Source: a virus. Taken from it: a stretch of DNA of 44,942 nt. Of the stretch, positions 1 to 44,942 are shown one piece after another. The position numbers were made by a program, and so were the translations under genes. The stretch is from IMG/VR virus record IMGVR_UViG_3300046517_001637, positions 1-44,942 of that record; one strand, 5' to 3'. The notes below the pieces were generated by a model that made no database searches, was not told the origin of the DNA, and worked only from the letters and a program-made list of their open reading frames with translations. Numbering within the stretch: position 1 is the stretch's first letter; every line of letters begins with the position of its first letter.

Positions 1-120
1 GGCCCCATGGCGGCCCCGCTGCCCCCCCCCTGGGGCACCCGTCAGAAAATCTGGTTCCATCTCGGCGGCTGACGGCCCCAGCCCGCCCCCCTTTTCCCCC
101 TCACCCGGCGATATTTTTTT
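1..120. repeat. Left copy of 120-bp exact terminal direct repeat
   Basis: These 120 bases are identical to 44823-44942, including the run of nine C and the run of T. Exact end-to-end identity of this length is what an assembler leaves when it opens a circular or circularly permuted genome. It could also be a short genuine terminal repeat. The stretch is non-coding and lies upstream of the gene starting at 134. Confidence 0.95.
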
Positions 121-133
121 TTGGAGCCCCGGC

Positions 134-508
134 ATGCGGCCACAACTCTTGCGAGCCCCCGTCGCCTCGCTTGCATTTATTTATATGTGCGCGAGCGCGA
201 GCCCGTCGCTGGCGGCGAGCGATGCGTTTGCGGTTGGCGGTGCGACGGTGAGCCTGGCGGTGACGGGGACGACGGGCCGGGTTCAGGTTCAGCCCTCGGC
301 GGCGAACCCGAACCTGCGGATTTACAACGCCGGCACGGTTGCGGTGTTTTTGGCCTGTGGCGACGTAACCATCGTCGCGACCCTTGCCGGCAGCATGCCG
401 GTAGCGCCTGGGACGGTTGAGGTGATTGAGTGCCCGCAGCCGTATGTAGCGGGGATCAGCGGGGGCACGGCGGCGACGGTTTACCTGACGCCGGGCAACG
501 GGCTGTAG
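134..508 (+). CDS. Small putative exported protein, function unknown
   Basis: The 124-aa product is not recognised. Its N-terminus has an arginine followed by a hydrophobic stretch ending in a small-residue segment around residues 20-28, which looks like a cleavable signal peptide. The rest is rich in Val, Thr, Gly and Ala, as in a beta-sandwich, with two cysteines (in ACGDV and IECPQ) that could pair after export. GGAG at 123-126 is spaced seven bases from the ATG. It is the first gene after the non-coding closure region and is followed after four bases by an arabinofuranosidase/LamG-like gene. It may be a virion decoration protein or, given the signal, an envelope or secreted protein. Confidence 0.75.
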   Translation: MRPQLLRAPVASLAFIYMCASASPSLAASDAFAVGGATVSLAVTGTTGRVQVQPSAANPNLRIYNAGTVAVFLACGDVTIVATLAGSMPVAPGTVEVIECPQPYVAGISGGTAATVYLTPGNGL

Positions 509-512
509 AGCC

Positions 513-1397
513 ATGCGCTGGGCATTACCGGCGGCGGTATTGGCGGCGGTAACGCTGTCGAGTGCGTCGGCTTACGTGCGGGGTGGCCCGGGGGTGATGC
601 CGCACGGGCACCACCGGTTGAAGTTGCCGGTATTGCCCCCGTTGGATGGGTTGGTGGGGGCGGCGTCCTCGGGGGCGTATGGGTTTCGGCTGTTGCGGAC
701 TGGGGCGCCGAGCGGGGTGCGGCTCCGCCGGGCGAGCGACAACGCTGAGCTTGACATAGGCTTCACGGCGACCGGCGACATGGACGCGGCGCTGGCAGGG
801 AGCCACTGCGCGGCCACCAGCTGTTTTGTGCGGAGTTGGTACGACCAGAGCGGCAACGGGCGGCACCTGGGCAATGCGACGGCGGCGGGTCAGCCGCAGC
901 TGATATTCAATTGCCAGAACACGCAGCCGTGCATGGAGGTTGTGGGGGCGGGTCAGGGCTTGCCGAGCGCGGCGAATTTCACGCCGGCGACGGGGGTAAT
1001 GAGTCTCTCCGTGGTAGCGGACCGGAATGGGGGGACGGCGCAGTGCATATTGCTGCGGATGAACGGGAGTTCCAACCAGCTGACGACGGCGAGCGGGGCG
1101 GCCAATGCGTGGTGGTGGGTTGGCGGCACCAGCGGGACCTTGGTACCGGCGCCGCTTGATGGGGCGTGGCATGCGTTTGCGGGGACGCTGAACGGGGCGT
1201 CGTCTTACGCGTATGTAGATGGGGTTGCCACGACGGGGAGTGCGACGGGGAGTGTGGTGGCGGGGTTGGTTTCGAACGCGGGTCCGGCGACGGGGAGTTG
1301 TCGGCAGGCGGAGGCGGTATTTTGGGATAATTACGCGCTGTCGCCGACGGAGCGTGCGGCGCTAGTGACGAACCAGCGCAATTACTGGGGGTTTTGA
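513..1397 (+). CDS. Arabinofuranosidase-B/LamG-like carbohydrate-binding protein with signal peptide
   Basis: A 294-aa protein. Residues about 2-20 form a hydrophobic signal-like segment. From about residue 45 it carries features of the alpha-L-arabinofuranosidase B catalytic or concanavalin-like fold: GAYGFRLLR, VRLRRASDNAELDIGF, SWYDQSGNGRHL and a late DGVATTG strand pair. Such domains in phages usually bind or trim host surface glycans. Several cysteines (SHCAATSC, FNCQNTQPC, GSCRQ) fit disulphides formed outside the cytoplasm. The stop codon overlaps the next ATG (TGATG). Family-level assignment is by motif only; whether it is catalytic or purely binding cannot be said. Confidence 0.75.
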   Translation: MRWALPAAVLAAVTLSSASAYVRGGPGVMPHGHHRLKLPVLPPLDGLVGAASSGAYGFRLLRTGAPSGVRLRRASDNAELDIGFTATGDMDAALAGSHCAATSCFVRSWYDQSGNGRHLGNATAAGQPQLIFNCQNTQPCMEVVGAGQGLPSAANFTPATGVMSLSVVADRNGGTAQCILLRMNGSSNQLTTASGAANAWWWVGGTSGTLVPAPLDGAWHAFAGTLNGASSYAYVDGVATTGSATGSVVAGLVSNAGPATGSCRQAEAVFWDNYALSPTERAALVTNQRNYWGF

Positions 1398-3397
1398 TGC
1401 GCTGCTGGCGCACGGCCCTGGCCGCGGCGGGTTTGGTGCTGCTGCGGGCGGACATGTACCCGGACGCCTCGAACGCGGTTATGCCGGCGGCGTCGGTGAA
1501 TTTGGGTGCGGCGGCCTCGCTCTCGGCCTTTGGCGGGCGGTGCGACGGGGTTGCGGACGACACGGCGGCGTTTCTTGCGGCTAGCGTGTGGATGATGGGG
1601 GCGGCTCAGCGGGTGGTACGGTTGCCGGCGGGCGTGTGTACCACGAGCGCGACGATCGGCTGGGGTGACGGTCGTCAGACCAGCACCGCGCTGAGCGCGG
1701 GGGCGTCTGGGTCGAGCCTATCGGTGGGCAGTTGCGCTGGGGTTGTGGCGGGCGACGCGGTTGCGGTGCGGCGCGACGATGGGAGTTTGTATCGCGGCAC
1801 GACCGGGGGCTGCGCCGGGGCGGCGTTGGCGGTGAGCCCGGCCTGGTCCGGCACGGCGGCGAGCGCGGGAGCCTTGGTCTACACGGGGCGGATTTCATCG
1901 AGTAACGGCGGCGGGTTTTTGGGGCAGGGGGCGGCGCAGGACCAGGATGCGAGCGGCGCGGGGGCGGTAACGACGATCCGTTACACCGGGCCGGCCGCCG
2001 CGAGCGCAGCTACGGTCGGGGTGACGGCGGCGGGCTCGCGCACAATTGTTCTGGACAGCGCCGCGGGGATCGCCATGGGCACGCCGCTTCAGGCGGTGCT
2101 TGACAATGGCGACACGTTTTGGACGAGCGCGCGGCTGACGCCTGCGGGCACCACTCTATATATAGAGAACGAGGTGCCGGCGGGGCGCAGCATTCCGGCC
2201 GGCGCGAGCATCCTGATCGCGAGCAACCCGGTGGTGCGGGTATCGGGGCCGATCGTCGACCCGGTCCTGACGGGCATTCACATCGACGCGGGGAACCTGG
2301 CGGCGATCGGGCTGGAGCTGGTGCACGTGATCCAGGGGCGCGGCACGGGCGGGCCGGGCGGGGTGAGCGTGGCGAACCACACCGGCATCGGGGGGTATTT
2401 TCGCACGTGGCCGGCGCCGTTTGGCAATTACAGCGGCAGCGTCAATGGGGAGTATGAGTTTTCCGCGCTGAAACCAGCCAACAACCGGGCGATTGGGTTG
2501 TGGCTGTTGGGCCCGGCGTTGAACAACATGGCGTATAGCCGCAACCGCTTTCACGGCGGCACGCTGATGATGGGCGGGCACGACGCGGCGGCGGCGGCGC
2601 TGAGAGTGGAGCACGCCGACAACAACGTGTTTCTGAAGCCCTTCACTTACTATAGCAGCGGGTACTTCACGCCGGGCAATCTGGGGGCGGGGCTGTACCG
2701 GCAGGCCAGTATTGATGGCGGCAACTTTCCGGTCGAGAACACGTATTACGGGGCCGCGTTTCTGGGCGGGGTCACCGACGCGCCGGCGACGGGGGTGTCG
2801 CTGGGCGCCGATTTGTTTCTGCAATATGGCACGGGCGATGGGGAGCCGCTGCCGGGGCGCACCAGCGGGCCGGGGCTCTCGACCGCCGGGTCCTTGTTCA
2901 ACCTGAAGGATTTGTCGTTTGTCAGCGGGGTATCGAGCCCGGCGACGCTGAATTTCCGCGACCCGTCGGGGACCTACATCTGGGGCCTGGGGCGTGGCGG
3001 GCCGAGTGCCAACGGGTTATCGGTGGAAAGCCTGAGCGACGTTGGGTTTTACGTCGGCGCGGGTGCTATTGGCGGCGGCGGTCTGGCGCTGGCGATCGAT
3101 TTCAAGCGGCATTTGCGGGCCAGCGGCCCCGCCCCGGCGCTGACCGCGTGCGGCACGTCCCCGGGCGTGGTTGGCAGCGACGTGGCCGGCACGGTGACGA
3201 TGGGGACATCCTCGCCGGCGGGGTGTGTCATCACCTTTGCCCAGCCTTATGTGGCGGCGCCGATCTGCAATGTGAGTTGGCGGGGCAATTTGGCGGCGAT
3301 GGGGTACACCACAGCGCCGGCATCGCTGACCTTGACGCAGACGCCGACCAGTTCGAACAAGGTGGATTACGCTTGCTGGGCGCAGGCGGGCGGGTGA
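1397..3397 (+). CDS. Pectate-lyase-fold spike/depolymerase-like protein with signal-like N-terminus
   Basis: A 666-aa protein starting at the ATG that overlaps the previous stop; a TTG one codon earlier is less likely. After a hydrophobic N-terminus (TALAAAGLVLL) comes the typical start of a pectate-lyase-3 right-handed beta-helix, FGGRCDGVADDTAAFLAA, then long Gly/Asn/Val-rich repeats. The last ~85 residues (from LTACGTSPGVV to ACWAQ) form a Cys-containing beta domain that I have seen C-terminal to such helices. Beta-helix proteins are the usual phage tailspikes and polysaccharide depolymerases. The signal-like start is unusual for a structural spike and is shared with its neighbours. Confidence 0.75.
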   Translation: MRCWRTALAAAGLVLLRADMYPDASNAVMPAASVNLGAAASLSAFGGRCDGVADDTAAFLAASVWMMGAAQRVVRLPAGVCTTSATIGWGDGRQTSTALSAGASGSSLSVGSCAGVVAGDAVAVRRDDGSLYRGTTGGCAGAALAVSPAWSGTAASAGALVYTGRISSSNGGGFLGQGAAQDQDASGAGAVTTIRYTGPAAASAATVGVTAAGSRTIVLDSAAGIAMGTPLQAVLDNGDTFWTSARLTPAGTTLYIENEVPAGRSIPAGASILIASNPVVRVSGPIVDPVLTGIHIDAGNLAAIGLELVHVIQGRGTGGPGGVSVANHTGIGGYFRTWPAPFGNYSGSVNGEYEFSALKPANNRAIGLWLLGPALNNMAYSRNRFHGGTLMMGGHDAAAAALRVEHADNNVFLKPFTYYSSGYFTPGNLGAGLYRQASIDGGNFPVENTYYGAAFLGGVTDAPATGVSLGADLFLQYGTGDGEPLPGRTSGPGLSTAGSLFNLKDLSFVSGVSSPATLNFRDPSGTYIWGLGRGGPSANGLSVESLSDVGFYVGAGAIGGGGLALAIDFKRHLRASGPAPALTACGTSPGVVGSDVAGTVTMGTSSPAGCVITFAQPYVAAPICNVSWRGNLAAMGYTTAPASLTLTQTPTSSNKVDYACWAQAGG

Positions 3398-3398
3398 G

Positions 3399-3638
3399 TT
3401 GTCGGGTCTGGCGCTGGTGGCGGGGGTGGTGCTGGTAGTGCTGCACCGGGCGGATGGCGGTGAGGTGGCGGTGGTGCCGGGCCACGTGACCAATCTGCAC
3501 AGCGCAGCCGCCCCGCAGAACAAGGTGGTGGTGGGTGCGGCGCGCTGCGTCTTGGGGCTGGACGACGGCAAGTATCTGAGCGTGTTGGAGGCGTGCGGCG
3601 AGGTGCGGCGGCTATTGGAAGAGGCGGCGGGGCGGTGA
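3399..3638 (+). CDS. Small membrane-anchored or exported protein
   Basis: A 79-aa protein. The likely start is the TTG at 3399, one base after the preceding stop, because the reading begins directly with a hydrophobic segment (LALVAGVVLVVL, residues 4-15). The remainder is soluble, with two cysteines in ARCVLGL and LEACGEV and a pattern of the form VVPGHVTNLHS...TTRCVL...GKYLSVLEAC that I have met in other alphaproteobacterial phages without a known role. It is the fourth gene in a row with an N-terminal export-type segment. Its stop overlaps the GTG of the large terminase gene (GTGA). Confidence 0.65.
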   Translation: MSGLALVAGVVLVVLHRADGGEVAVVPGHVTNLHSAAAPQNKVVVGAARCVLGLDDGKYLSVLEACGEVRRLLEEAAGR

Positions 3639-4930
3639 GCGCGGGCCAGATCCAGTTACCGGCAAAGCTGGTGCCGGTGTTTAGTGGCGAAGCCTTGTAC
3701 CGCGGTGCCTATGGCGGGCGCGGCAGTGCCAAATCGCGCAGTTTTGCCAAGATGGCGGCGGTGCACGGGTTGCGCTGCGCGATGGCGCGCGAGAGCGGTG
3801 TCATTGTCTGTGGTCGAGAATTTCAAAACTCGCTTGACGAGTCATCCATGGCGGAAGTCAAGCAGGCGATCGAGTCGGAGCCCTGGCTGGCGGCGAATTA
3901 CGAGATTGGCGAGAAGTACATCCGCACCCGCGACGGGCGGATCGATTTCAGCTTTGTGGGGCTCAGGCGAAATATCGAGTCGGTGAAATCGACTGCCAGA
4001 ATACGGCTTTTGTGGGTCGACGAGGCGGAGCCGGTGAGCGAAGTTGCCTGGATGAAGGCGATCCCGACGGTGCGCGAGGAGAACGCCGAGATTTGGGTGA
4101 CGTGGAACCCGGAGAGAAGGGCCAGTGCCACCAACAAGCGGTTCCGCGAGAACCCGCCTGACAATTCCCAGATCGTCGAGGTGAACTGGCGCGACAACCC
4201 GTGGTTTCCGGGGGTGTTGGAGCAGATCCGGGCGGAGGACGAGGAGAAGCGGCCGGAGCAGTACCCTCACATTTGGGAGGGTGACTATGCGACGGCGCAC
4301 GCCGGGGCGTATTACGCGGCGGCGCTGTCGGAAGCGGCGCGCGAGGGGCGGATCGGGCACGTGACCAGGGACCCGCTGATGGCGGTGCGGGCGTATGTCG
4401 ACATTGGCGGCACGGGGGCGCGGAGCGATGCTTACAGCTGCTGGATCTGTCAGTTTGTCGGGCGCGAGATCCGGGTGTTGGATTACGAGGAGGCGGTGGG
4501 GCAGCCGCTGAGTTTTCATGTGGACTGGTTGCGGGAGCGGGGGTGGGGCAAGGCGCAGGTGTTTTTGCCGCATGACGGGGCGACGCACGACCGGGTATTC
4601 GACGTGTCGTTCGAGAGCGCGTTTCGCTCCGCGGGGTTCAATGTGGAAGTGATCCCCAACCAGGGGCGGGGGGCGGCACGGGCGCGCATCGAGGCGGCGC
4701 GGCGGATGTTTCCCTCCGTGTGGTTCAACGCGGAGACGACGGAGCCGGGGCGGGACGCCTTGGGGTGGTATCACGAGCGGCGCAGCGAGGATGTGCGCGA
4801 CGTGGGGCTGGGTCCCGAGCACGACTGGTCGTCGCACAGCGCGGACGCGTTTGGCTTGATGTGCGTCGCGTACGAGACGCCGGCGGGGCGGCCGGTAAAG
4901 ATGAAGTACCCGGCGCTGGGGCTGGTGTGA
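3635..4930 (+). CDS. terL: Terminase large subunit
   Basis: DNA-packaging motor of 431 aa from the GTG at 3635; the reading frame is open 14 codons further upstream but those overlap the previous gene. Walker A GGRGSAKS is at residues 27-34 and Walker B LLWVDEAE at about 125-131, with the catalytic acid E130. The nuclease half has the expected acidic residues: D256 in VDIGGTG and D404 in SHSADAFG. Length and motif order fit the PBSX/Sf6-type large terminases. The small subunit is not adjacent: it lies at 44178-44705, separated by the closure region and four carbohydrate/export-type genes. Confidence 0.95.
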   Translation: MSAGQIQLPAKLVPVFSGEALYRGAYGGRGSAKSRSFAKMAAVHGLRCAMARESGVIVCGREFQNSLDESSMAEVKQAIESEPWLAANYEIGEKYIRTRDGRIDFSFVGLRRNIESVKSTARIRLLWVDEAEPVSEVAWMKAIPTVREENAEIWVTWNPERRASATNKRFRENPPDNSQIVEVNWRDNPWFPGVLEQIRAEDEEKRPEQYPHIWEGDYATAHAGAYYAAALSEAAREGRIGHVTRDPLMAVRAYVDIGGTGARSDAYSCWICQFVGREIRVLDYEEAVGQPLSFHVDWLRERGWGKAQVFLPHDGATHDRVFDVSFESAFRSAGFNVEVIPNQGRGAARARIEAARRMFPSVWFNAETTEPGRDALGWYHERRSEDVRDVGLGPEHDWSSHSADAFGLMCVAYETPAGRPVKMKYPALGLV

Positions 4931-44125: not shown

Positions 44126-44178
44126 CGCGCGATAAGTTTAAGGACCTCTTCAAGCGCAAGGGCCGCGGCGGGCGCTGA
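44122..44178 (+). CDS. 18-aa basic peptide in the translational chain
   Basis: Reads MTRDKFKDLFKRKGRGGR. Its ATG overlaps the upstream stop (ATGA) and its TGA overlaps the terS ATG (TGATG), so ribosomes could pass directly through it. The first four residues and the 17 bases around its start repeat those of the 59-aa gene. It may be a remnant of a duplicated gene kept as a coupling leader for terS. Confidence 0.4.
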   Translation: MTRDKFKDLFKRKGRGGR

Positions 44179-44705
44179 TGTCACTGCAACAGCCCGCTGC
44201 CCCACGCAGGCGCGGCGGACGCAACGGCTCCGAAAAGGTCTACACCGAGGAACTCGCCGAAGAGATACTCGACAGGCTGGCCGCCGGTGAGAGCCTCGCT
44301 GCCATATGCTCCGATCCCGCTCTCCCATCCGAAAAGACCGTCAGATACTGGGCTATCGACGAGAATGGGCCCCCGGGTTTCGCGACGAGGTACGCTCGCG
44401 CGCGGTCTGTCGGTTACGAGCGGTTGGCTGACGAGGTGATCGCGATCGGTGACACCGAGTGCATCGGGCCTGACGGTTTCGTTGACAATGGCGCGGTGCA
44501 GCGTGCCAGGTTGATGTCTGACAATCGCAAGTGGCTGCTCTCCAAGCTGCTGCCGAAGCAATTCGGCGACAAGGTGACGCAGGAGCTGGTCGGCGATCCG
44601 AACGCGCCGATCGTGACGCGCATCGAGCTGGTGCCGGTAGCGCCGCTGACGCGGCTGCCGAAGCGTCGCGACGATGGGGGAAGCGATGATGGATCGATTG
44701 GGTGA
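44178..44705 (+). CDS. terS: Terminase small subunit, Sf6-like
   Basis: 175 aa. After a basic, flexible start (PRRRGGRNGSEK) comes the HTH typical of Sf6-type small terminases: YTEELAEEILDRLAAGESLA, AICSDPALPSEKTVRYW, then FATRYARARSVGYERLADEV and a middle oligomerisation region (RARLMSDNRKWLLSKLLPKQ). It recognises the packaging site and hands DNA to TerL. On the circle, the gene is about 3.75 kb upstream of terL, with the closure region and four other genes between. Confidence 0.88.
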   Translation: MSLQQPAAPRRRGGRNGSEKVYTEELAEEILDRLAAGESLAAICSDPALPSEKTVRYWAIDENGPPGFATRYARARSVGYERLADEVIAIGDTECIGPDGFVDNGAVQRARLMSDNRKWLLSKLLPKQFGDKVTQELVGDPNAPIVTRIELVPVAPLTRLPKRRDDGGSDDGSIG

Positions 44706-44822
44706 TCGCCTCGTAACCCATTGATATCAGCTGACGTGTTGTCGGATGGGATATCCGCTTCCTCGCGCGTACATAAGATAAACAGAGTCGCCGCCGCGCC
44801 TTGTCGGAGGGCTGATGCCCCT
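44706..44822. other. Non-coding region after terS, packaging-site candidate
   Basis: No gene. Contains palindromes TGATATCA (44722-44729) and GGATATCC (44749-44756), i.e. two GATATC units 27 bases apart, an inverted CGGAT/ATCCG around the second, and AT-rich ACATAAGATAAACA. With the first 133 bases of the window it forms a ~250-base gap on the circle, next to terS, where cos or pac sites and a late promoter are expected. No promoter is confident. Confidence 0.4.
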
Positions 44823-44942
44823 GGCCCCATGGCGGCCCCGCTGCCCCCCCCCTGGGGCACCCGTCAGAAAATCTGGTTCCATCTCGGCGGCTGACGGCCC
44901 CAGCCCGCCCCCCTTTTCCCCCTCACCCGGCGATATTTTTTT
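44823..44942. repeat. Right copy of 120-bp exact terminal direct repeat
   Basis: Identical to 1-120. It joins the end of the contig to its start and makes the terS-to-134 interval continuous. It includes C9, C6 and T-run homopolymers and the hairpin GCCCCA/TGGGGC. Confidence 0.95.

Follow-up and report, generated by a model that had tools for sequence, protein, structure and literature searches.

The virus record IMGVR_UViG_3300046517_001637 of IMG/VR (44,942 nt; the window in the following is this whole stretch, positions 1-44,942) contains three consecutive genes, here called A, B and C, which probably form an accessory cassette of virion-type proteins that have been re-routed to the secretory pathway and act on envelope or extracellular glycans. 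Judged by their sequences, export of all three products is very likely. Gene A (134..508, + strand; ATG at 134 with a GGAG ribosome site) encodes 124 aa with an export signal and a jelly-roll/beta-sandwich domain of ~97 aa, gene B (513..1397, +) encodes 294 aa with an export signal and an arabinofuranosidase-B/LamG-like domain, and gene C (1397..3397, +; corrected start ATG 1397) encodes 666 aa with an export signal, the motif DMYPDASNA and a tailspike/pectate-lyase-like body. The signal peptide of A covers residues 1 to ~27 (134..214, +), with the N-terminus MRPQLLRAPVASLAFIYMCASASPSLA followed by AS and cleavage at 22 or ~27-28, and that of B, MRWALPAAVLAAVTLSSASA followed by Y, covers positions 513..572 (+); both passed the n-h-c signal rule. 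In C the export segment MRCWRTALAAAGLVLLRA (1397..1450, +), of the LLRA/DMY class conserved among relatives, stands directly before DMYPDAS and thus before the conserved mature N-terminus DMYxDxSNAKLPxAxxNLG (1451..1507, +; in the window DMYPDASNAVMPAASVNLG).

The n-h-c rule is a hand-made and conservative stand-in for SignalP, which was fixed before counting and which rejects the LLRA/DMY class of C. Relatives were collected from IMG/VR by scans with terL (80 loci), B (4) and an A profile (35); the homologues are not independent and the relatives were partly gathered through the same genes. The rule was passed by 20/22 B and 16/23 A proteins, and among the controls by 1/90 portal proteins, 1/25 major capsid proteins, 0/26 scaffold proteins, 6/143 terL proteins and 8% of other genes. 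Because the rates in portal, scaffold and major capsid proteins are near zero, hydrophobic starts by chance were rejected as an explanation for A, B and C. All 20 close A homologues (49-66% whole-protein identity to the window A, with a well conserved mature part) start with a hydrophobic segment, and the mature part of each contains exactly two cysteines. The signal block itself is gap-rich and divergent in the alignment and ends with A-x-A or AQ in the relatives. For B, the signal is of the Sec type in some phages by its appearance and resembles a twin-arginine signal in others (RRxFL; RRRSFLxG, KRRAFLLG). Signals diverge or switch type and mature parts are conserved, and despite this sequence turnover each family retains a hydrophobic N-terminus, a basic start and usually an A-x-A site.

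A protein-level scan of IMG/VR with C gave no match, and relatives were recovered instead at the DNA level, with a degenerate pattern encoding D-M-Y-x-D-[A/G]-x-N-A. This pattern left the upstream sequence unspecified and matched 53 IMG/VR stretches. In 48 of the 49 distinct open reading frames (ORFs) with the motif, it is directly preceded by a hydrophobic stretch with a start codon; the only ORF without one, L204, appears to match by chance. Because of this hydrophobic stretch directly upstream, the DMY motif is the likely mature N-terminus. D1, M2, D5, N8 and A9 are invariant in the 47 complete sequences including the window, with several of these positions demanded by the search pattern itself. 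The N-terminus of C had no match among 50,697 isolate phages and a search for the motif in one bacterial order (397 genomes) was negative. Another group of exported fibre-like proteins starts with QQVPNPMSxDAANAxLPxARNNLELG after its signal (L019 4312-5832, L216 2344-3864, L248 3-1064, L208 9125-11044) and shares the motif NAxLPxARxNL; in L247 this motif occurs in tandem repeat.

The original prediction had taken paired cysteines as a sign of an oxidising compartment, and this pairing indeed lies far beyond chance (A 20/20, B 15/15, C 46/47). In the window, mature A contains two cysteines (C75, C100), B six (99, 104, 134, 140, 178, 263) and C eight. The second cysteine of A is found at a shifted position in L019, L099 and L103, with the pair retained, and the same six B cysteines occur in 15/15 exported homologues, whereas the signal-less gp059 of Synechococcus phage S-CBS4 keeps 1/6. 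Mature C proteins contain 4-14 cysteines on differing bodies, and the number is even in 46/47 (binomial 3e-13 if independent) and in 24/25 once the bodies are clustered at 40% identity; when neighbours are paired in sequence (1-2, 3-4 etc.), the spans are shorter than with the alternative pairing in 46/46. Among the other signal-bearing genes of these contigs, which are partly A-, B- and C-type genes and not fully independent, 37 counts are even and 2 odd, compared with 208 even and 253 odd in genes without a signal; the control virion proteins have neither signals nor paired cysteines. Periplasmic proteins favour even cysteine numbers (PMC3608174; also PMC7678975), as in the alphaproteobacterium Novosphingobium with an even count in 53/55 mature periplasmic proteins (PMC3608174). 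From this pattern, A, B and C are very probably locked by disulfide bonds outside the cytoplasm. It seems highly improbable that they are ordinary spikes assembled in the cytoplasm whose N-termini are hydrophobic by chance or because of wrong start codons. High-GC DNA gives Ala/Val/Leu-rich starts and all three families have virion-type relatives, but the control rates in the same phages, the 48/49 hydrophobic segments of the motif search, the cysteine parity of C and the survival of hydrophobic block and cleavage site through sequence turnover are at odds with such an origin.

With regard to the families involved, AlphaFold2 (AF2) models A with a predicted local distance difference test (pLDDT) of ~97 across most of the mature part, and solved structures gave weak cupin-like matches only. 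Of the 66 viral-library matches at E<=0.001, most are small phage proteins without a known function. Signal-less A relatives in L117, L118 and L119 start where the mature exported A starts, and 30 further ones are present in bacterial genomes (10/385 genomes of a class sample and 24/299 of an order sample); these are mostly ~102 residues long, nearly free of cysteines and without a convincing signal. Profile matches tie A to this signal-less family with E from 1e-4 to 1e-12, and in 5/6 contexts read for the bacterial members a capsid-like gene, identified as such from sequence, precedes. Because the signal-less relatives share the domain and mostly adjoin the major capsid gene, A probably derives from a head-module protein family. 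Unlike these relatives, the window A carries a signal and lies between terS and terL. Two P22-like phages have the A homologue just after the capsid gene, in L120 (6557-6910) with a signal and in L119 (6908-7192) without.

The predicted arabinofuranosidase/LamG-like product is B, which matches PF09206 (2e-9) and weakly Laminin_G_3 (0.0014), and whose C99 and C104 correspond in the alignment to the segment FCANTTC of arabinofuranosidases of solved structure. B occurs in one to three tandem copies among the relatives; a search of plasmids gave no match. The pectate-lyase-fold spike of the original prediction applies in part, as the pectate-lyase-like PF12708 is matched by 7/22 C relatives but not by the window C, for which weak tail/EPS-depolymerase PHROG matches (1e-4, 0.08) were obtained; a comparison of C with solved structures found no relatives. 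Because only ~20 residues separate the signal of C from the beta-helix module, C appears to lack a normal particle-binding domain.

These family relations also bring up the main rival explanation, a serious one though less probable in our view, namely that A, B and C are virion parts matured in the periplasm: exported and disulfide-bonded, they would join the cytoplasm-assembled particles when lysis mixes the compartments. A would then serve as capsid-binding base, and B and C would be adhesins of head or tail. In several phage types, signal-less A relatives immediately follow the major capsid gene, as does the signal-bearing homologue of L120. This is consistent with such virion parts, as are the annotation of B relatives as minor tail or virion structural proteins and the place of the cassette within the late structural operon, where in L110 its neighbours are tape-measure and tail-fibre genes. 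However, a role outside the virion is favoured because C has no space for particle binding, because the cassette is accessory, because the window genome carries a separate S74 tail fibre, as anticipated by the claim of other fibre genes elsewhere in the genome, and because the exported spike of Burkholderia phage Bm1 sits outside the virion genes. A PEP-CTERM-type neighbour in relatives also speaks against virion parts.

The order A-B-C is kept in 36 distinct IMG/VR contigs, each counted once even with several loci; roughly half of these have it between terS and terL. Elsewhere it lies between terL/D and portal (L090, L107, L108, L114) or between portal and scaffold (L086, L091; B is not always recognised beside A). 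In L110 it adjoins the tape-measure gene (phrog_8462 5e-27) and tail-fibre genes in the tail region of a siphophage, and in L116 a portal gene of a different type (PF04860 1e-63). The position between terS and terL is therefore not essential and was rejected as a defining feature. The cassette is absent from many relatives, and always lies within late gene blocks, whatever its site.

A signal-bearing protein with a PEP-CTERM-type end, VPEPA(S/G)LLLLGG...WRRRF, precedes A in L090 (6261-6932), L108 (2286-3149; match of 9e-4, just below the cutoff) and L114 (1804-2625), and a similar tail, TEPGSLWLFGG...GWWRNRRR, is found in L086 (1531-2328). These neighbours suggest hosts with an exosortase system. 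Another neighbour has a twin-arginine N-terminus and matches WbsX below threshold (4e-4); eight contigs encode a protein related to it. This family is conserved, ~390 residues long, has conserved cysteines and is located near the exported cassette (L019 5832-7022, L112 8078-9253, L009 4936-6123, L100 12641-13816, L290-L297); comparison with solved structures found no relatives. Because both types of neighbours look exported, action at the cell surface is favoured.

Several observations weigh against the proposed secreted, glycan-directed cassette. The window C does not pass the strict n-h-c rule because of an Arg at -2 by the cleavage site, although its relatives conserve the same segment as an export-type one. 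The AF2 model of C, built with 22 relatives, has a mean pLDDT of 40 and is unusable beyond residue ~90, and the GH54 catalytic residues lie outside the detected homology of B (~48-124 in the family profile, 16-90 in the solved enzymes). Furthermore, other phages carry homologues of A and B as virion-type genes, and the cassette belongs to the late structural operon. Finally, a sigma-70 consensus scan of window 44700-44942 in the gap between terS and A, with one copy of the 120-bp terminal repeat included, found no promoter- or terminator-like site, and the apparent lack of a separate promoter upstream of the cassette argues against expression in lysogens. This last point bears equally on the assumption that A, B and C are surface-tethered conversion proteins, whose uncleaved signals act as anchors and which alter the surface of the lysogen. 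The tyrosine integrase (PF00589) encoded by the window phage and the short signal with a poor cleavage site in the LLRA/DMY class of C would fit such proteins, but most homologues have good A-x-A cleavage sites and the cassette remains in late gene blocks at every site, and we consider tethering unlikely.

For the preferred secreted cassette, gene order, signals, cysteine pairing and family relations emerge from comparison of the relatives, and we infer from them export and cleavage as such, the glycan target, the timing and the benefit. A, B and C would be made in the late operon, carried across the inner membrane by Sec (in some relatives probably by Tat) and cleaved, and they would fold in the periplasm with sequential local disulfides. 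Their target would be envelope or extracellular polysaccharide, in the periplasm or outside after release. C may act as a beta-helix of the tailspike type in which a normal particle-binding domain finds no space, B may bind glycans in the manner of a lectin or arabinofuranosidase, and A may be a small jelly-roll partner drawn from a head-gene family. As a likely benefit, surface glycan around the infected cell would be cleared or masked, which may spare the progeny from trapping by debris and neighbouring cells; alternatively, competing phages may be excluded. Hence, the choice offered by the original prediction between a secreted glycan-directed system and ordinary spikes is settled in part: signal conservation and cysteine parity argue strongly for export of A, B and C, but D does not follow, and a glycan-modifying or receptor-masking activity is what we suppose the exported proteins to have.

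Among known proteins, the P22-tailspike-type depolymerases of PF12708 resemble the C relatives in the pectate-lyase-like N-terminal module and in carrying a variable body on a conserved N-terminus. C differs by its export signal, the missing room for particle binding, the disulfide-type cysteine pairs and the accessory position. B shares the AYxxR...YDQSGN segment and a whole-domain resemblance with PF09206 virion proteins (S-CBS4 gp059 and minor tail proteins of Gordonia and Arthrobacter phages), but gp059 has no signal, in contrast to the signal and the six fixed cysteines of the exported B. Alphaproteobacterial prophages and P22-like phages encode signal-less proteins of ~102 aa, located behind the major capsid gene, which share the A domain by profile search; unlike A, they are not part of an A-B-C cassette. 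An analogue of C among isolates is CDS_0099 of Burkholderia phage Bm1 (PP183292.1 60058-63063; L288 3154-6159), a spike-like protein of 1001 aa annotated as hypothetical. It has a signal peptide, as C does, 10 mature cysteines in five close pairs and a shared C-terminal LPxCN...FCNG domain (52.8% identity), but it lacks the DMYQDASNA motif and is located in a small-gene region at the far genome end of a virulent myophage, 30 kb from the tail genes and outside the virion gene block. Bm1 is not listed in the collection searches with A and B, none of which was aimed at Bm1 itself, and a keyword search of the Bm1 paper gave no mention of CDS_0099.

From lysogens, exported phage proteins of the Bor and Lom type are known, small lipoproteins or outer-membrane proteins that the particle does not require. 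The cassette is similar in being exported, but consists of virion-type lectin and spike proteins in a late operon. Searches of the open-access literature, among them ones for exported tail fibres and phage PEP-CTERM proteins, gave no description of an exported spike cassette; the separate fold classes were already known, and it is the joint export of the three that is new. Spikes and decoration proteins of tailed phages are generally taken as cytoplasmic products. A mobile cassette in which three unrelated virion-type families have signals and cysteine pairs points to phages that direct virion parts into host secretion, possibly in a convergent manner, and raises the question whether the glycan surroundings of the infected cell are reshaped before lysis or virions are completed outside the cytoplasm. 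The combination of signal and cysteine parity is also a simple test for such proteins among uncharacterised phage genes.

The cassette and a fourth gene, D, lie between the two terminase genes on the circular 44.8-kb map of this complete-looking record, which is closed by an exact 120-bp terminal repeat (the first 120 bases equal the last 120). Together with the Pfam and PHROG assignments of the flanks, this confirmed the earlier claim of four genes between terS and terL on the closed circle. The left flank is terS, the terminase small subunit (44178..44705, +; PF20901 Sf6_terminase 2e-30, PHROG 1482), and the right flank is terL, the large subunit (3635..4930, +; PF04466 5e-22, 431 aa), whose start was corrected to GTG 3635 as the homologues begin at MxxGQI/RIxLP. 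The nearest prophages by terL are mostly alphaproteobacterial, with an identity of 70% and below. The repeat (window 1-120 and 44823-44942) lies within the gap between terS and A and could represent either a genuine terminus or an overlap produced by the assembly. A, B, C and D are all encoded on the + strand and tightly packed; B starts 4 bases past the stop of A, and the stop codons of B and D overlap with the start of the next gene (C and terL, respectively).

D (3429..3638, +; ORF from 3399, likely start GTG 3429) is a small protein without a signal and with two invariant cysteines. All four products had been described as starting with a signal-like segment, which applies to A, B and C but not to D. 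Its hydrophobic residues 4-15 precede an internal start column with Met in 5/9 homologues (M-V/I-V-LHR), the homologues of L114 and L115 have no hydrophobic segment at all, and a basic n-region and a cleavage site are missing, so that D was rejected as an exported protein. D is located downstream of terL in some relatives and, by this distribution, is part of the terL neighbourhood and separate from the cassette. D and its homologues (L003, L012, L084, L090, L107, L114) share a conserved LHRxDGGEVxVNPxxV and travel near terL; by eye they resemble FlbD-like domains, with no Pfam match. The terL genes of L012 (4537-6555) and L018 (4141-6153) contain an in-frame insertion of ~240 residues at window residue 412/413, and apparent insertions closer to the N-terminus are present in L096 (6873-8960) and L099 (6486-9371); judged from the sequences, these are probable inteins at two sites.

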